Source: a virus
Length of the DNA: 20,395 nucleotides
Direction: 5' to 3' (one strand)
IMG/VR virus record: IMGVR_UViG_3300030099_007666
Coordinates: 1 to 20,395 of that record
This document shows, in pieces, positions 15,167 through 19,613 of the stretch. The translations under genes and the position numbers were made by a program. Numbering within the stretch: position 1 is the stretch's first letter; each line of letters starts with the position of its first letter. Under the pieces are notes generated by a model, which saw nothing but the letters and a program-made list of their open reading frames with translations, did no database searches and was not told where the DNA came from.

Positions 15167-15217
15167 TGTTGTCCATAGGCCAAAAAGTATGCATATTTTA
15201 CAAAGCAGATTTTACTC

Positions 15218-15224
15218 ATAAATA
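15218..15224 (+). promoter_or_regulatory. Late promoter box (ATAAATA)
   Basis: CATAAATA is followed by six bases and the ATG at 15231. Transcription is predicted to start at or one base before the start codon, with no Shine-Dalgarno possible on such a message. It would drive the plus-strand set up to 17421. Confidence 0.65.
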
Positions 15225-15230
15225 AGCGTT

Positions 15231-15710
15231 ATGCACGATGTATTAGATATAATCCGTAATGTACAGGGGCTATACGCCGTAGGCCCTACTTTGGGCATAC
15301 TTAAAGACTACGAAAGGGTAATGGACGAACTAGACCTATATGTGTTCGAAAATTGGCAGGACGGTGAACTGCTAGAGGGCCCAAAAGATTCTAGACATTT
15401 TGTCACTTGTAGTTTCATGTGGCCTGAAGATAGGATGCCAGATCCAACTGGTGGACAAAGACTACTTGACAGAGGATGTAAAGTATCATACAGACGAGAC
15501 GAATTACTGAAGCCAAGACAGATTAAGTCTCCAGAAGATTACAGGCCCGGCACAACCAAGGGCAAGATTGACGCACATCCAATTTGGATTGTAGAGATAA
15601 AGATGCCAAAAGAACTGATTGGCAATTTTAAGTTTGGCAGAGATAACATCGAAAATCAAGACGAAACAGATATAGCAACACAGGATCAAAATAATTTAGA
15701 TGCAAATTAA
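15231..15710 (+). CDS. Conserved protein of unknown function (late operon, first gene)
   Basis: The 159-residue soluble protein has no signal or TM segment. It begins 'MHDVLDIIRNVQGLYAVGPT', has a central 'HFVTCSFMWPEDRMPDPTGG' segment and 'CKVSYRRDELLKPRQIKSPE', and ends in a polar, probably disordered tail ('ENQDETDIATQDQNNLDAN'). 'HPIWIVEIKMPKELIG' looks like a buried strand followed by a loop. It resembles conserved proteins of marine T4-like phages of unknown role, possibly virion-associated given the late promoter; that is inference. The last 11 bases overlap the next gene. Confidence 0.55.
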   Translation: MHDVLDIIRNVQGLYAVGPTLGILKDYERVMDELDLYVFENWQDGELLEGPKDSRHFVTCSFMWPEDRMPDPTGGQRLLDRGCKVSYRRDELLKPRQIKSPEDYRPGTTKGKIDAHPIWIVEIKMPKELIGNFKFGRDNIENQDETDIATQDQNNLDAN

Positions 15711-16440
15711 TGAAGGACTAAAGGCCGGTGATTTGGAAGGCGTGATCGATAAACGTTTTTCCATAGACCAATTTAAATCAAAAATGGGCGATGACAAAAA
15801 CATCATGGTCCTTGCTTTTACGGCAGAAGGACTTGCGCCTGCCAAGGACCTAGAACGTTTTGCTGAGACCGGATATAAAGAAATTTTAGATGCAGATGCA
15901 ACTCCTGGCGCAATGGCAGATGGCAAACACAAAGTATTTGTTGAATTTGCAAGACAGGATGGAGTTATCATGCATATAATGAAATTTTTGGAAGACCTCA
16001 AAAAACTTACCAATATTGAAGAGTTTGAGTACACTTATCACAAAGGTGAAAATCCAACTCTTGTATCTGCAGGTACCATGCAGGAGATGGTTCCTACAAC
16101 TCCTGACGCATACGAACAAAAGGTCAATGAAATGAAAATTGGTGAAGCAAAAAACTTTTTTGACAAATACGACATGTTAGAATGTGCAATGGAGGACAAT
16201 ATTTTAAGTGTCAAAAAGGCAGGCACACAACAAGAGTTACAATTTGAAATACACAAAGTTGGATCAACTAATGAAATCATGAAAGAAGCTAAAGCATTTG
16301 CTTTGGACATAGATTCGGTGGCAGAATGCACACATCTTACAAAATACTTTGGTCCTTACAATATTACCAAAACCACTGAAAACAGATTCATTTTCAACAA
16401 AGGTGATGAGTCTGCACTATTAAGTAAGTACAAATGGTAA
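15700..16440 (+). CDS. Conserved protein of unknown function (late operon, second gene)
   Basis: The product is 246 residues, acidic, alpha/beta, with no TM segment. Residues ~1-40 ('INEGLKAGDLEGVIDKRFSI') and ~41-100 ('KNIMVLAFTAEGLAPAKDLE', 'MHIMKFLEDLKKLTNIEEFE') contain regular amphipathic helices and strands. The C-terminal half includes 'TQQELQFEIHKVGSTNEIMK' and 'YNITKTTENRFIFNKGD'. The layout suggests two similar alpha/beta subdomains. I recognise this kind of protein as a conserved unknown of T4-like marine phages but cannot assign a function. It overlaps the gene before it by 11 bases and the peptidase gene after it by 7, so all are likely translated as a coupled set. Confidence 0.55.
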   Translation: MQINEGLKAGDLEGVIDKRFSIDQFKSKMGDDKNIMVLAFTAEGLAPAKDLERFAETGYKEILDADATPGAMADGKHKVFVEFARQDGVIMHIMKFLEDLKKLTNIEEFEYTYHKGENPTLVSAGTMQEMVPTTPDAYEQKVNEMKIGEAKNFFDKYDMLECAMEDNILSVKKAGTQQELQFEIHKVGSTNEIMKEAKAFALDIDSVAECTHLTKYFGPYNITKTTENRFIFNKGDESALLSKYKW

Positions 16441-16898
16441 GGTTATCAAAAAATTTCACGCTACAAGAATTCACTAAAAGTCAAACAGCAACAAGAAAAG
16501 GCATAGACAACACGCCTGGTGAAGAACATCTTGCCAAAGCAAAGGATCTTTTTGAAAATGTGGTGCAGAAGGTCAGGGACAACTTTGGAGTAACAGTAAT
16601 TAACTCTGGATATAGGGGTCCAGCACTTAACGAAGCTGTAGGCGGTTCCGAAAGATCGCAACACTGTAAAGGCGAAGCGGTGGATATAGAATGTCCAGGC
16701 ACCCCTAATTATGATGTGGCAAAATGGATTGAAGATACCTTAGACTTCGATCAACTGATATTAGAATTCTATACACCAGGTATACCTGATTCAGGATGGG
16801 TACACGTTTCTTACAAATCTGACGGTAATCGTAAAAGTGTTTTGACTGCAATGAAGGAGAACGGCAAGACCGTCTATAAAACAGGATTAATACAATAA
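16434..16898 (+). CDS. M15-family peptidoglycan peptidase (likely endolysin)
   Basis: The 154-residue protein of the peptidase M15A type starts 'MVRLSKNFTLQEFTKSQTAT', the usual N-terminus of this family. Landmarks are 'VINSGYRGPALNEAVGG' at ~55-71 with Arg61, the zinc motif 'SQHCKGEAVDIE' with His77 and Asp84, and 'GWVHVSY' with the third zinc ligand His124; Glu111 is a possible catalytic acid. These enzymes cleave D-Ala-containing peptide cross-bridges of peptidoglycan. There is no signal peptide, so release through a holin would be needed if it is the endolysin; a virion-borne lytic role is an alternative. It sits in the late operon starting at 15231 and about 1.4 kb before the spanin-like pair, which fits a lysis function. 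Confidence 0.75.
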   Translation: MVRLSKNFTLQEFTKSQTATRKGIDNTPGEEHLAKAKDLFENVVQKVRDNFGVTVINSGYRGPALNEAVGGSERSQHCKGEAVDIECPGTPNYDVAKWIEDTLDFDQLILEFYTPGIPDSGWVHVSYKSDGNRKSVLTAMKENGKTVYKTGLIQ

Positions 16899-16899
16899 A

Positions 16900-17421
16900 A
16901 TGTATCAAAAATGTTTTTTAGATTACGATCACAATTTTTTTGTCGAGCAGGAATACAAAGAAGAACCAACTAGTTGTATCAAACATCAGATCAACGAGCT
17001 TGACGACATACACAAAAAGTATGGTGGCTTTCCGGAAACATATACTTTTGCCAATACGAAAATACATCAATTATGGTATACCAATGAACAAATTGATTTC
17101 GAGGCCATAGGAAAGCAATTAGGAGTCGAGGTGGTTACAGTCAGTTCTATAAAGCAACCTCCTGGACAAGTTGTTCCATTGCATAGAGACACTTTTTTCC
17201 AAATCAAAAAAAAATTTCCTGATGACAAGAGATTGAAAGTACGGGCAAACATATATCTCCAGGATTGGAAGATGGGACAGTTTATACAGTATGACGACAC
17301 AGTTGATGTGAAGTGGAAAGCAGGCGATGGACACATATGGGACAGCAATGTTCTCCACGTCAGTGCTAACGCAGGATTTGACGACAAGTACACTTTGCAG
17401 GTGAGTGGTTTTTTGTTATAA
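16900..17421 (+). CDS. 2OG-Fe(II) oxygenase-like protein
   Basis: The 173-residue protein carries the Fe(II)/2-oxoglutarate oxygenase pattern. 'QVVPLHRDTFFQI' has His95-x-Asp97; 'RANIYLQDWKMGQFIQYDD' and 'VKWKAGDGHIWDSN' supply the jelly-roll strands and turns. 'VLHVSANAG' has the distal His153, and 'DDKYTLQVSGF' follows with Lys163, a candidate 2OG carboxylate ligand. All triad positions are present, so it is probably active; the substrate is unknown. Proteins of this type are frequent in marine T4-like phages. It starts one base after the peptidase stop and ends immediately beside the 3' end of the opposing minus-strand gene. It is clearly different from the oxygenase-like protein at 13090-13629. 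Confidence 0.6.
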   Translation: MYQKCFLDYDHNFFVEQEYKEEPTSCIKHQINELDDIHKKYGGFPETYTFANTKIHQLWYTNEQIDFEAIGKQLGVEVVTVSSIKQPPGQVVPLHRDTFFQIKKKFPDDKRLKVRANIYLQDWKMGQFIQYDDTVDVKWKAGDGHIWDSNVLHVSANAGFDDKYTLQVSGFLL

Positions 17422-18300
17422 TCAAATAGTAATTCTTTTATCCCATATCCTACTAAAACATAAACGATTTGTATCTATACCTCTGTCGTATTCAGAATAT
17501 TTTCCAGATGTATCTAAACCAAATATTACACAATCCGATGGAGTTAAATGTAAACTAGCACAGGAATCTTTTTGTAAATCTTTATATTTTTCATATAGCC
17601 AATTATTACTAAATTTTTTTATCATTTGGTGACCTATATTGACACTGAATAAGTTTACATAATCATTTTGATTATAGGCAAATAAAGTATCATCAAAAAA
17701 TTGCCTTCTCATCCTGATGCCTATCCTGTGGTGTTCTACAGGAAAAACTTTGCTTAATGACGTGGTAATTGTATGAATACATTTGTAACTAAGGTCGAGC
17801 TCTTCTATTTTTGATATACTGATGTACGCAAGATCTAACATCACAGGAATATCAAGTTGTTCGCACTGCTCTAATACATTATAAAAGTTGACAGGTATAT
17901 TTCCTGTGCCTGAGAACGGACAACTCATCACAACTACATCACCGGACTTTAGTTTATCATCACCTATGTCAACACATGATTTAAAATAATTACGTCCCAT
18001 CAACCAATGATAAAAAAATTCTCCTTTTAGCAGACGCAAACGTTTATTGATGTGTTGATGATAGAATTGACCAAAAGTTTCTGTGGTGCCAGCACTGAAG
18101 TCAATGTTTCCAAAATTTTGTATTCCTTGAAAATTTTTACCACTGCATATCCATTCTTTGTAATCTTTCAAGAACTTTTTACTATCACCTATTTCATGGT
18201 TGATGTTTTTTAAATGTTCAACAGACTCGGGGTCGTGGATGCTCCATGCACCTCCATAAGGTTTATTTCTTAACGGTGGTAATACATGATTGATAGCCAT
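17422..18300 (-). CDS. Compact PLP-dependent aminotransferase-like (fold type I) protein
   Basis: The 292-residue minus-strand protein shows the order of elements typical of fold-type I aminotransferases. 'IDFSAGTTETFGQFYHQH' at ~67-83 resembles the phosphate-binding GATEA segment. 'VVVMSCPFSGTGNIP' at ~122-136 corresponds to the NP-x-NPTG region, and 'IPVMLDLAYISIS' at ~151-163 to the DEAY strand, with Asp156 for the pyridine nitrogen and Tyr159. 'TTSLSKVF' at ~179-186 has Lys184 as the Schiff-base lysine, followed by 'RIGIRMRR'. Usual family length is ~350-400, so the N-terminal arm and C-terminal small domain are shortened; 'LCFSRIWDKR' near the end may hold the substrate-carboxylate arginine. 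The canonical Asn of the NPTG loop is altered. It is a single-gene minus-strand unit between plus-strand late genes, with a variant late box upstream. Active aminotransferase or repurposed fold cannot be decided by reading. Confidence 0.6.
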   Translation of the reverse strand: MAINHVLPPLRNKPYGGAWSIHDPESVEHLKNINHEIGDSKKFLKDYKEWICSGKNFQGIQNFGNIDFSAGTTETFGQFYHQHINKRLRLLKGEFFYHWLMGRNYFKSCVDIGDDKLKSGDVVVMSCPFSGTGNIPVNFYNVLEQCEQLDIPVMLDLAYISISKIEELDLSYKCIHTITTSLSKVFPVEHHRIGIRMRRQFFDDTLFAYNQNDYVNLFSVNIGHQMIKKFSNNWLYEKYKDLQKDSCASLHLTPSDCVIFGLDTSGKYSEYDRGIDTNRLCFSRIWDKRITI

Positions 18301-18314: not shown

Positions 18315-18329
18315 GGCGTATATTTGACC

Positions 18330-18336
18330 ATAAATA
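18330..18336 (+). promoter_or_regulatory. Late promoter box (ATAAATA)
   Basis: CATAAATA is followed by eight bases and the ATG at 18345. The in-frame TTG at 18324 lies upstream of this box and so cannot be on the transcript; that supports the ATG as start. Confidence 0.65.
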
Positions 18337-18344
18337 TTAGCCAT

Positions 18345-18818
18345 ATGTTTTCAAGCATTAGAATGATATTCACAGTATTAATAATCACCGGAATAGCCGG
18401 TGCAGGTATGTATGTGATGAAATTGAGGGCAGATAACGCCACACTTAAAGCAAATCAAATTAAATTAGAGACAGCGGTTGCAGAACAGAACAAGGTGTTG
18501 GAACAACAGAAAAAAGATTTTACGGCAATAATGGAAAGCAATAAGAAATTAAATGTATTGATCAACACATTCAAAAAAGATCTACAGGATCTAGACAAAC
18601 GTTTCACAAAGAAAAACAGAGACATAGGCAAACTTGCAATAGAAAGAACAAAATCTATAGAACGTATTGTCAACAACGGTGGGAAAAATGCCGCAAGATG
18701 TATCGAGTTGGCATCAGGTGCAGAGCATACTGAAGCAGAACTAAAGGCAACATTAAAATCACAAATCAACCCAGAGTGTCCAGCACTTGCAAATCCAAAT
18801 TATGTACCACATCAATAA
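18345..18818 (+). CDS. Membrane-anchored coiled-coil protein (i-spanin-like)
   Basis: The product is 157 residues. An N-terminal TM helix (~7-25, 'MIFTVLIITGIAGAGMYVMK') is followed by a long charged coiled-coil (~28-110: 'NKVLEQQKKDFTAIMESNKK', 'LQDLDKRFTKKNRDIGKLAI'). A short C-terminal segment with two cysteines ('ARCIELASGAEH', 'NPECPAL') completes it. This is the architecture of an inner-membrane spanin: N-in anchor, periplasmic coiled coil. The next gene is a lipoprotein that overlaps its 3' end by 17 bases, as in many Rz/Rz1-type pairs. The C-terminal 'GAEHTEAELKATL' also recalls phage Rz-like proteins. A general structural membrane protein is the alternative. Confidence 0.55.
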   Translation: MFSSIRMIFTVLIITGIAGAGMYVMKLRADNATLKANQIKLETAVAEQNKVLEQQKKDFTAIMESNKKLNVLINTFKKDLQDLDKRFTKKNRDIGKLAIERTKSIERIVNNGGKNAARCIELASGAEHTEAELKATLKSQINPECPALANPNYVPHQ

Positions 18819-19167
18819 AATATTTGCATTAGCATTAATTGTATTACTAACAGGTTGTAGTATAGGTGGCGAGAAAAAGATCAAGATATTTTCAGTTGAG
18901 AAACCAAGGGAAAAATTAAACTACGAGATGCCAACTCCATTACAAATGGAGGAAATTTACTGGCATATTATCACAAGTGAAAATGCAGAGGAAGTATTCA
19001 AAAAACTAGAAGAAGCAGGAATAGATCCTGTGTTATTCGGAATCACAGATAAAGACTTCCAGGTGCTGGCTAGAAACTTTGCACAGATAAGGCAAAAACT
19101 ACAGGAAACAAACAACCTGCTTGAAGAGTACAAAAAATACTACGAAGATTCTGGTAATACTCAATAA
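18802..19167 (+). CDS. Lipoprotein with coiled coil (o-spanin-like candidate)
   Basis: The preferred start is the ATG at 18802, giving 121 residues; the in-frame TTG at 18787 would only add five residues before the signal. The N-terminus 'MYHINKIFALALIVLLTGCS' is a textbook lipoprotein signal with lipobox LTGC and the lipidated Cys at position 19. The mature part is charged and helical ('LQMEEIYWHIITSENAEEVF', 'LARNFAQIRQKLQETNNLLE', 'YKKYYEDSG'). It starts inside the previous gene in another frame. Together with that TM plus coiled-coil neighbour, it fits a two-component spanin that fuses inner and outer membranes at lysis. It is longer than most o-spanins and is not Pro-rich, which weakens the call; the lipoprotein assignment itself is strong. 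Confidence 0.6.
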   Translation: MYHINKIFALALIVLLTGCSIGGEKKIKIFSVEKPREKLNYEMPTPLQMEEIYWHIITSENAEEVFKKLEEAGIDPVLFGITDKDFQVLARNFAQIRQKLQETNNLLEEYKKYYEDSGNTQ

Positions 19168-19170
19168 ATA
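19164..19170 (+). promoter_or_regulatory. Late promoter box (ATAAATA)
   Basis: CAATAAATA overlaps the stop codon of the lipoprotein gene and is followed by eight bases (CTACTATT) and the ATG at 19179. Predicted transcription starts within about three bases of the start codon. Confidence 0.65.
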
Positions 19171-19178
19171 CTACTATT

Positions 19179-19613
19179 ATGAAGATCAGTGATTCAACAT
19201 CAATCTCGATGCCAATGCGGAACCTAATTTCAATCGTGGCGGCAGTTGCGGTTGGCGTATGGGCATATTTTGGAGTTATCGAAAGACTAAACAAGTTAGA
19301 AACACAATCAGTTCTTCTAGAGAAGGACATGACTGCCGAAGATGAAAGATTGCACAACGAAGTTACAAAAAACACAGACTTCAGGATTAGATATCCACGA
19401 GGCGAATTGGGTCAAAGTTCACAAGACATAGAACAGTTCATGTTGATAGAAGATTTATATAAAAGTGTAGATAGGATGCAAAAGCATCTAGACGACATGG
19501 CAAACAACAAGGTAAACATAGAGTTTCTCAAAGAGCAAATGGAAAAAGCACTAAGGTCTATTGAGAAATTAAAGGACGCTGACAGAGAAATAGTGTATAA
19601 GAACGGAAACTAA
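19179..19613 (+). CDS. Conserved membrane-anchored coiled-coil protein
   Basis: The 144-residue product has a short N-terminal tail 'MKISDSTSISMPMRN', one TM helix (~15-34, 'LISIVAAVAVGVWAYFGVI') and then a long helical, charged region. A central 'TDFRIRYPRGELG' motif is followed by a second coiled coil ('LIEDLYKSVDRMQKHLDDMA', 'FLKEQMEKALRSIEKLKD'). The 'SMPMRNLIS...VGVWAYFG' start and the 'F-R-PRGE-G' motif are, in my recollection, conserved in T4-like cyanophage proteins of unknown function. It has its own late promoter and no Shine-Dalgarno. The placement among envelope proteins suggests a lysis or membrane-remodelling role, which is inference. Confidence 0.65.
   Translation: MKISDSTSISMPMRNLISIVAAVAVGVWAYFGVIERLNKLETQSVLLEKDMTAEDERLHNEVTKNTDFRIRYPRGELGQSSQDIEQFMLIEDLYKSVDRMQKHLDDMANNKVNIEFLKEQMEKALRSIEKLKDADREIVYKNGN

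Follow-up and report, generated by a model that had tools for sequence, protein, structure and literature searches.

The stretch of DNA analysed here (hereafter the window) is 20,395 nt long and constitutes the whole of the IMG/VR virus record IMGVR_UViG_3300030099_007666. Megablast, run with the complete window as query on phage records, returned no match. The window is T4-like, as it carries genes for a clamp loader subunit (PHROG 168, E = 6e-78) and for baseplate/tail-fibre connector proteins. Two overlapping genes on its plus strand are the subject of this work. The first, or i-gene (18345-18818; ATG at 18345, stop codon ending at 18818), encodes a candidate i-spanin of 157 amino acids, comprising a transmembrane (TM) segment at about residues 7-25, a heptad-patterned helix at residues 27-98 and a C-terminal part with Cys119 and Cys145. 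The second, or o-gene (18802-19167; ATG at 18802, stop codon ending at 19167), lies in another frame and encodes a candidate o-spanin of 121 amino acids, with a signal peptide (residues 1-18), the lipobox LTGC including Cys19, and a mature domain with a long terminal helix at residues 83-114 in the AlphaFold model. The two reading frames share 17 nt (18802-18818). A previous interpretation made from the letters alone (the sequence-only reading) had described a TM and coiled-coil protein overlapped by 17 bases, out of frame, by an LTGC lipoprotein gene, and the start and stop codons, hydropathy and heptad test all agree with this description.

An i-spanin should possess a single N-terminal TM segment followed by a periplasmic helical or coiled-coil domain, and three analyses point to such an organization in the i-protein: (i) its only TM segment is N-terminal, with the highest 19-residue Kyte-Doolittle window (2.02) beginning at residue 7, (ii) hydrophobic residues at heptad positions are in excess by 0.479 over residues 27-98, a value reached in 6 of 5000 shuffles, and (iii) the AlphaFold model contains helices at residues 2-91 and 94-123, albeit with low overall confidence. 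The single-chain models of the two proteins have pTM values of 0.30 and 0.27, which are low, and the profiles of both proteins found only weak, irrelevant matches in the PDB. The o-protein has the signal peptide and lipobox cysteine expected of an o-spanin, namely a short, lysine-containing N-terminus followed by a hydrophobic core and LTGC, and is predicted to be an outer-membrane lipoprotein.

The o-gene was the sole candidate in a heuristic lipoprotein scan across the window. In first-order Markov simulations, chance candidates of at least 40 amino acids arose at a mean of 0.38 per window, and any candidate of at least 100 amino acids was seen in one of 60 simulated windows; a lipoprotein of the length of the o-spanin is thus unlikely to occur by chance. 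Selection on the two genes is strongly purifying, as pN was well below pS in all 13 relatives compared, both for the i-gene (pN 0.08-0.20, pS 0.59-0.78) and for the mature part of the o-gene (pN 0.05-0.24, pS 0.71-0.95).

Conservation and variation among relatives

The sequence-only reading had proposed a search for the overlapping pair in related phages. Two scans of IMG/VR, combined with phage records and the window, yielded 97 DNA-distinct loci with both genes, which derive from the best 80 loci per scan (167 and 210 confirmed candidates) and are not a random sample. Among them are the window (L164) and, from isolates, the three phages L001, L002 and L167. Five were dropped from scoring, three for want of a scorable o-gene start (L001, L024 and L140) and two for want of an i-gene start (L009 and L075); outside the 97 stand loci in which the o-gene (L111, L129, L158 and L169) or the i-gene (L003, L033 and L168) was undetected. 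A lipobox was present in 95 of the 97 loci by a loose pattern and in 88 by the strict pattern [LVI][ASTVI][GAS]C. The two misses are Pelagibacter phage HTVC008M, in which the frame is interrupted, and L024, which has LSEC.

The i- and o-genes overlap by 1-71 nt in 81 of the 94 loci scored and are separated by a gap of 1-94 nt in the remaining 13. The commonest overlap was that of the window (17 nt, 37 loci), followed by 71 nt and 8 nt (14 loci each), 14 nt (10 loci), 20 nt (four loci) and 1 nt (two loci). Some of this variation can be traced to the N-terminus of the o-spanin. The mature domain in L011 is 99% identical to that of the window, yet it follows a different signal of 29 residues, and in L032 a mature domain 93% identical to that of the window is joined to another signal, with a 52-nt gap between the genes. 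The o-spanin signal peptide is thus swapped among relatives with near-identical mature domains, and the spacing of the genes accordingly varies between an overlap of 71 nt and a gap of 94 nt. For other spanins, families with both overlapped and separated members, as well as changed lipoylation signals, were known before, according to the accessible part of PMC6139136, and the swap described here is therefore one more example.

Two cysteines beyond residue 30 occur in 94 of 95 i-spanins and none in the remaining one, and all 92 o-spanins scored have no cysteine besides the lipid-bearing one. Every one of the 92 scorable pairs combines two periplasmic cysteines in the i-spanin with none extra in the o-spanin.

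Assignment to spanin families and alternative explanations

The best family for the i-protein was PHROG 739 (‘Rz-like spanin’; E = 1e-8, profile positions 2-119 of 122; next best family at 0.001), and the o-protein matched PHROG 812 (also ‘Rz-like spanin’; E = 2.1e-7, profile positions 2-92 of 102), so that the matches cover most of each partner. When the phage T4 proteins were scanned, PHROG 739 was the top family for PseT.3 (5.6e-37) and PHROG 812 for PseT.2 (3.1e-41), and the tie to a tested spanin thus rests on more than a label. The same top families were obtained for the pairs of phages Pv27 and Phosso; in phiM12 the i-gene was best in PHROG 739 and the o-gene second best in PHROG 812. 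Spanin genes can be embedded, overlapped or separated, and the 17-nt overlap is one of these arrangements. At least one periplasmic cysteine in one partner was reported for 507 of 528 two-component spanins in the part of PMC6139136 available, and the window pair has two, in the i-spanin. Counting against a spanin are the modest PHROG scores and an identity of 16-18% to the T4 pair. Judging from the arrangement of the genes, their signals, their conservation and their kinship with the T4 families, we consider it very probable that the pair at 18345-19167 is a spanin of two components and a relative of T4 PseT.3/PseT.2. The i-spanin/o-spanin interpretation given earlier is thereby supported, the paired lipobox layout being kept in relatives.

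The two proteins might instead serve a different purpose in the envelope or the virion, such as superinfection exclusion or a part in the particle, and resemble spanins in looks only. Virion structural genes lie close by at 15231 and 15700 (PHROG 12928 and 13138), and the Cor family for superinfection exclusion (PHROG 1119) gave a very weak match to the o-protein (E = 0.73). However, the top matches of both partners are the spanin families that hold the tested T4 pair, and a lipoprotein for superinfection exclusion would have no need of a membrane partner conserved along with it. We therefore regard this explanation as highly improbable.

A separate spanin elsewhere in the genome had been named in the sequence-only reading as the finding that would speak against a spanin at this locus. 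The record is merely 20,395 nt long, so this point was examined by proxy in relatives. PHROG 739 is unspecific in six-frame searches, as nine of the 14 genomes used as controls matched it at 0.001 and all 14 at 0.1, and we therefore relied on PHROG 812, which matched none of the 14 at 0.001 and 10 at E up to 1. In each of the 12 large relatives (103-328 kb), PHROG 812 matched once. When the complete L017 record (196,581 nt) was scanned for lipoproteins, the o-spanin was accompanied by a single further ORF, which runs antisense to the i-gene, and there was no other paired lipoprotein candidate; in T4, used as a positive control, the same scan recovered PseT.2 among four lipoprotein-like ORFs. 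As a general rule, the o-spanin being always the sole lipoprotein was rejected: it holds in L017 but fails in HTVC008M (five lipoprotein-like ORFs) and T4 (four). Alternatively, the real spanin may lie elsewhere, with 18345-19167 encoding a copy that is decayed or accessory. This might be suggested by the fragmentary record (20.4 kb), by the interrupted copies deposited for HTVC008M and by weaker second PHROG 739 matches, which, apart from the split gene of HTVC008M, were seen in two long records (G003 and G007), but the single PHROG 812 match in 12 of 12 records, the L017 scan (196.6 kb) and a pN far below pS in both genes make such a scenario exceedingly unlikely.

Neighbouring genes and a possible lysis module

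The T4-type spanin pair would be expected to act together with an endolysin. An M15 peptidase gene, likely encoding the endolysin of the same lysis module, is found on the plus strand at 16434-16898 (Peptidase_M15_3, PF08291, E = 1.3e-19; PHROG 894, E = 2.1e-44), and ends 1446 nt before 18345, in accordance with the distance of about 1.4 kb given previously. Two genes are inserted between the M15 gene and the spanin genes, one on the plus strand (16900-17421) with a weak match to PhyH dioxygenases below the cut-off, and the other on the minus strand (17422-18300) with no significant family match. Such inserted genes are rare among the relatives and occur in both orientations. A relative of the M15 gene was found upstream of the spanin genes in 56 of the 97 loci, and at most 150 nt away in 28 of the 97, mostly at 15 nt. 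None was seen upstream in the other 41 loci, which counts against the spanin reading; in seven of these, including the window excerpt, the sequence available upstream is shorter than 1.6 kb, and most of the 41 have enough.

The sequence-only reading had placed the whole set under late boxes. Sites resembling TATAAATA numbered 36 in the window against 34 expected, which is not above chance. All seven ATAAATA cores, however, lie within 45 nt upstream of a gene start in our gene list; for these boxes, the positions are informative and the counts alone are not. One core stands directly before 18345 and another before 19179, but neither the M15 gene nor the o-gene is preceded by its own box. The late-box claim is only partly right. 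The late-promoter-like box CATAAATA (18329-18336, plus strand) ends 8 nt before the ATG of the i-gene, and an ATAAATA box occurs at this same distance in 35 of 95 loci and at 5-8 nt in 43 of 95. The boxes at 18329-18336, 19163-19170 and 15217-15224 each end 6-8 nt before an ATG. If the ATAAATA box is a T4-type late promoter, the transcripts would be nearly leaderless.

Beside the spanin genes, a plus-strand gene at 19179-19613 encodes a one-TM, coiled-coil-like protein (PHROG 20984, 1.1e-34). The T4 holin T has one N-terminal TM segment and a periplasmic domain, a layout that the 19179 product resembles, and we put the protein forward as a holin candidate, as a lead only. Of 50,697 phage records, 45 contain the gene; named Pelagibacter phages account for 40 of these, and the other five are uncultured or of unknown host. 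This near confinement to Pelagibacter phages suggests a SAR11 host. When these 45 records were compared with the best 60 of 550 M15 matches, seven genomes carried both genes; the two are at most 1.7 kb apart in five (HTVC027P, HTVC034P, HTVC035P, HTVC010P and HTVC106P) and more than 10 kb apart in two (HTVC026P and 023Pt_psg01).

If the pair works as a spanin, the N-terminal TM segment would fix the i-protein to the inner membrane, with the helical part of this protein spanning the periplasm, and the o-protein, once exported, would receive a lipid at Cys19 that anchors it in the outer membrane. The two would meet through their periplasmic C-terminal regions, and the i-spanin may form dimers linked by disulfides through Cys119/Cys145. 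Caged by the cell wall, the complex would be held back until the endolysin, probably the M15 peptidase encoded at 16434 as the partner of the pair, removes the wall. The complex could then collapse and fuse or disrupt the outer membrane, letting the phage out. We infer both the formation of the complex and the timing of its action.

Comparison with known spanin systems

The window pair shares with T4 PseT.3/PseT.2 the PHROG 739/812 families, the i-then-o gene order, the one TM segment, the lipobox and the C-terminal helix of the o-spanin. The T4 genes overlap as well, by 4 nt. When Rz and Rz1 are missing from lambda, the T4 pair can take their place in lysis, as stated in the part of PMC6139136 available. 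The T4 pair is not near the T4 endolysin (PMC6139136, available part), whereas the window pair has the M15 gene nearby. The cysteines are also placed differently. In T4 the i-spanin lacks them and the o-spanin has two, which are essential and conserved in its family (PMC6139136, same part), whereas the window has two in the i-spanin and only the lipid-bearing one in the o-spanin. The absence of Cys87 and Cys98, essential in T4, from the window o-spanin counts against a spanin. In the narrow T4 type, two essential cysteines lie in the o-spanin and none in the i-spanin; the window pair departs from this and is thus classed as a T4-type relative, not as a member of that subtype. Its pattern fits the general trend described in the portion of PMC6139136 at hand, in which two i-spanin cysteines accompany fewer o-spanin cysteines. 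The alignments for the Sinorhizobium phages phiM12 and Phosso show no cysteine besides the lipid-bearing one in either partner; L003 and L168, Sinorhizobium phage spanin homologs, are an exception to the disulfide rule.

It is tempting to speculate, although we hold this to be rather less probable than its contrary, that in SAR11 T4-like phages the essential disulfide of the T4-family spanin was shifted out of the o-spanin into the i-spanin, that the o-spanin signal peptide is an exchangeable cassette by which one family drifts from a 71-nt overlap to full separation, and that the one-TM gene at 19179 is the missing holin, completing an M15-spanin-holin module. If this is true, the phages of the commonest marine bacteria would have a complete lysis module. 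The spanin assignment itself gives names to two ‘hypothetical’ genes that recur in many viral contigs from the sea (the two scans confirmed 167 and 210 candidates), and the cysteine shift and signal-peptide swaps constitute a natural experiment on the evolution of the spanin disulfide and of gene overlap.

Twenty Prochlorococcus and Synechococcus phages are listed without identifiable spanins in the part of PMC6139136 available. None of six T4-like cyanophage genomes gave a credible match to PHROG 739 or PHROG 812 (T4 control, 2e-43 and 9e-39); a PHROG 812 match in cyanophage P-HM2 (E = 0.003) was rejected as a stretch of 48 positions with an internal stop. On our assignment, one large group of marine T4-like phages carries a spanin, whereas marine cyanophages are listed as spanin-less in that part of PMC6139136. 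Spanins of SAR11 phages are not described in the titles and abstract openings of the literature searched, which mostly excludes subscription papers.

A described counterpart is found in the Vibrio phage Pv27, for which the accessible part of PMC12063606 names ORF174 as i-spanin (TM, coil) and ORF175 as o-spanin (lipoprotein) under ‘Rz-like spanins’. By our own reading of numbering and features, these are CDS0174 and CDS0175 of the deposit, and Pv27 homologs of both proteins appear among our matches H24 and H5. The Pv27 pair is about 30-32% identical to the window pair and likewise has overlapping genes (by 14 nt), two cysteines near the end of the i-spanin and none extra in the o-spanin, but its lipobox is VVGC instead of LTGC. 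Homologs in Va1, phiKT1024, Pv27 and HTVC008M are given as hypothetical proteins in deposits or match listings. The earlier remark that spanins are rarely annotated in marine T4-like phages thus stands for the deposits, but not for the Pv27 paper, which names both proteins in the part seen (PMC12063606).

Judged by both genes, HTVC008M is the most closely related of the named isolates (about 43-50% identity). Its pair (117049-117785; 7510-8246 in L001) has both frames interrupted in the deposit, by either sequencing error or real decay, and is annotated as short hypothetical proteins. It adjoins primase and ribonucleotide reductase genes, unlike the M15 setting of the window. Further lipoprotein-like ORFs of 116 and 197 amino acids lie at 135837-136187 and 136945-137538 in this phage. 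The broken frames of HTVC008M and its additional lipoprotein-like ORFs weigh against the spanin assignment.

Lambda Rz/Rz1 is alike in principle, combining a TM coiled-coil partner with an outer-membrane lipoprotein. The Rz-like family PHROG 89, to which we take lambda Rz to belong, matched the window protein at E = 0.19, and we do not place the pair in the lambda Rz/Rz1 family. The lambda genes are fully embedded, according to the available part of PMC6139136, whereas those of the window overlap by only 17 nt. The window pair is a fresh, somewhat divergent addition to the spanins already known, its modest novelties being a cysteine placement that is the reverse of that in T4 and the swaps of the o-spanin signal peptide.
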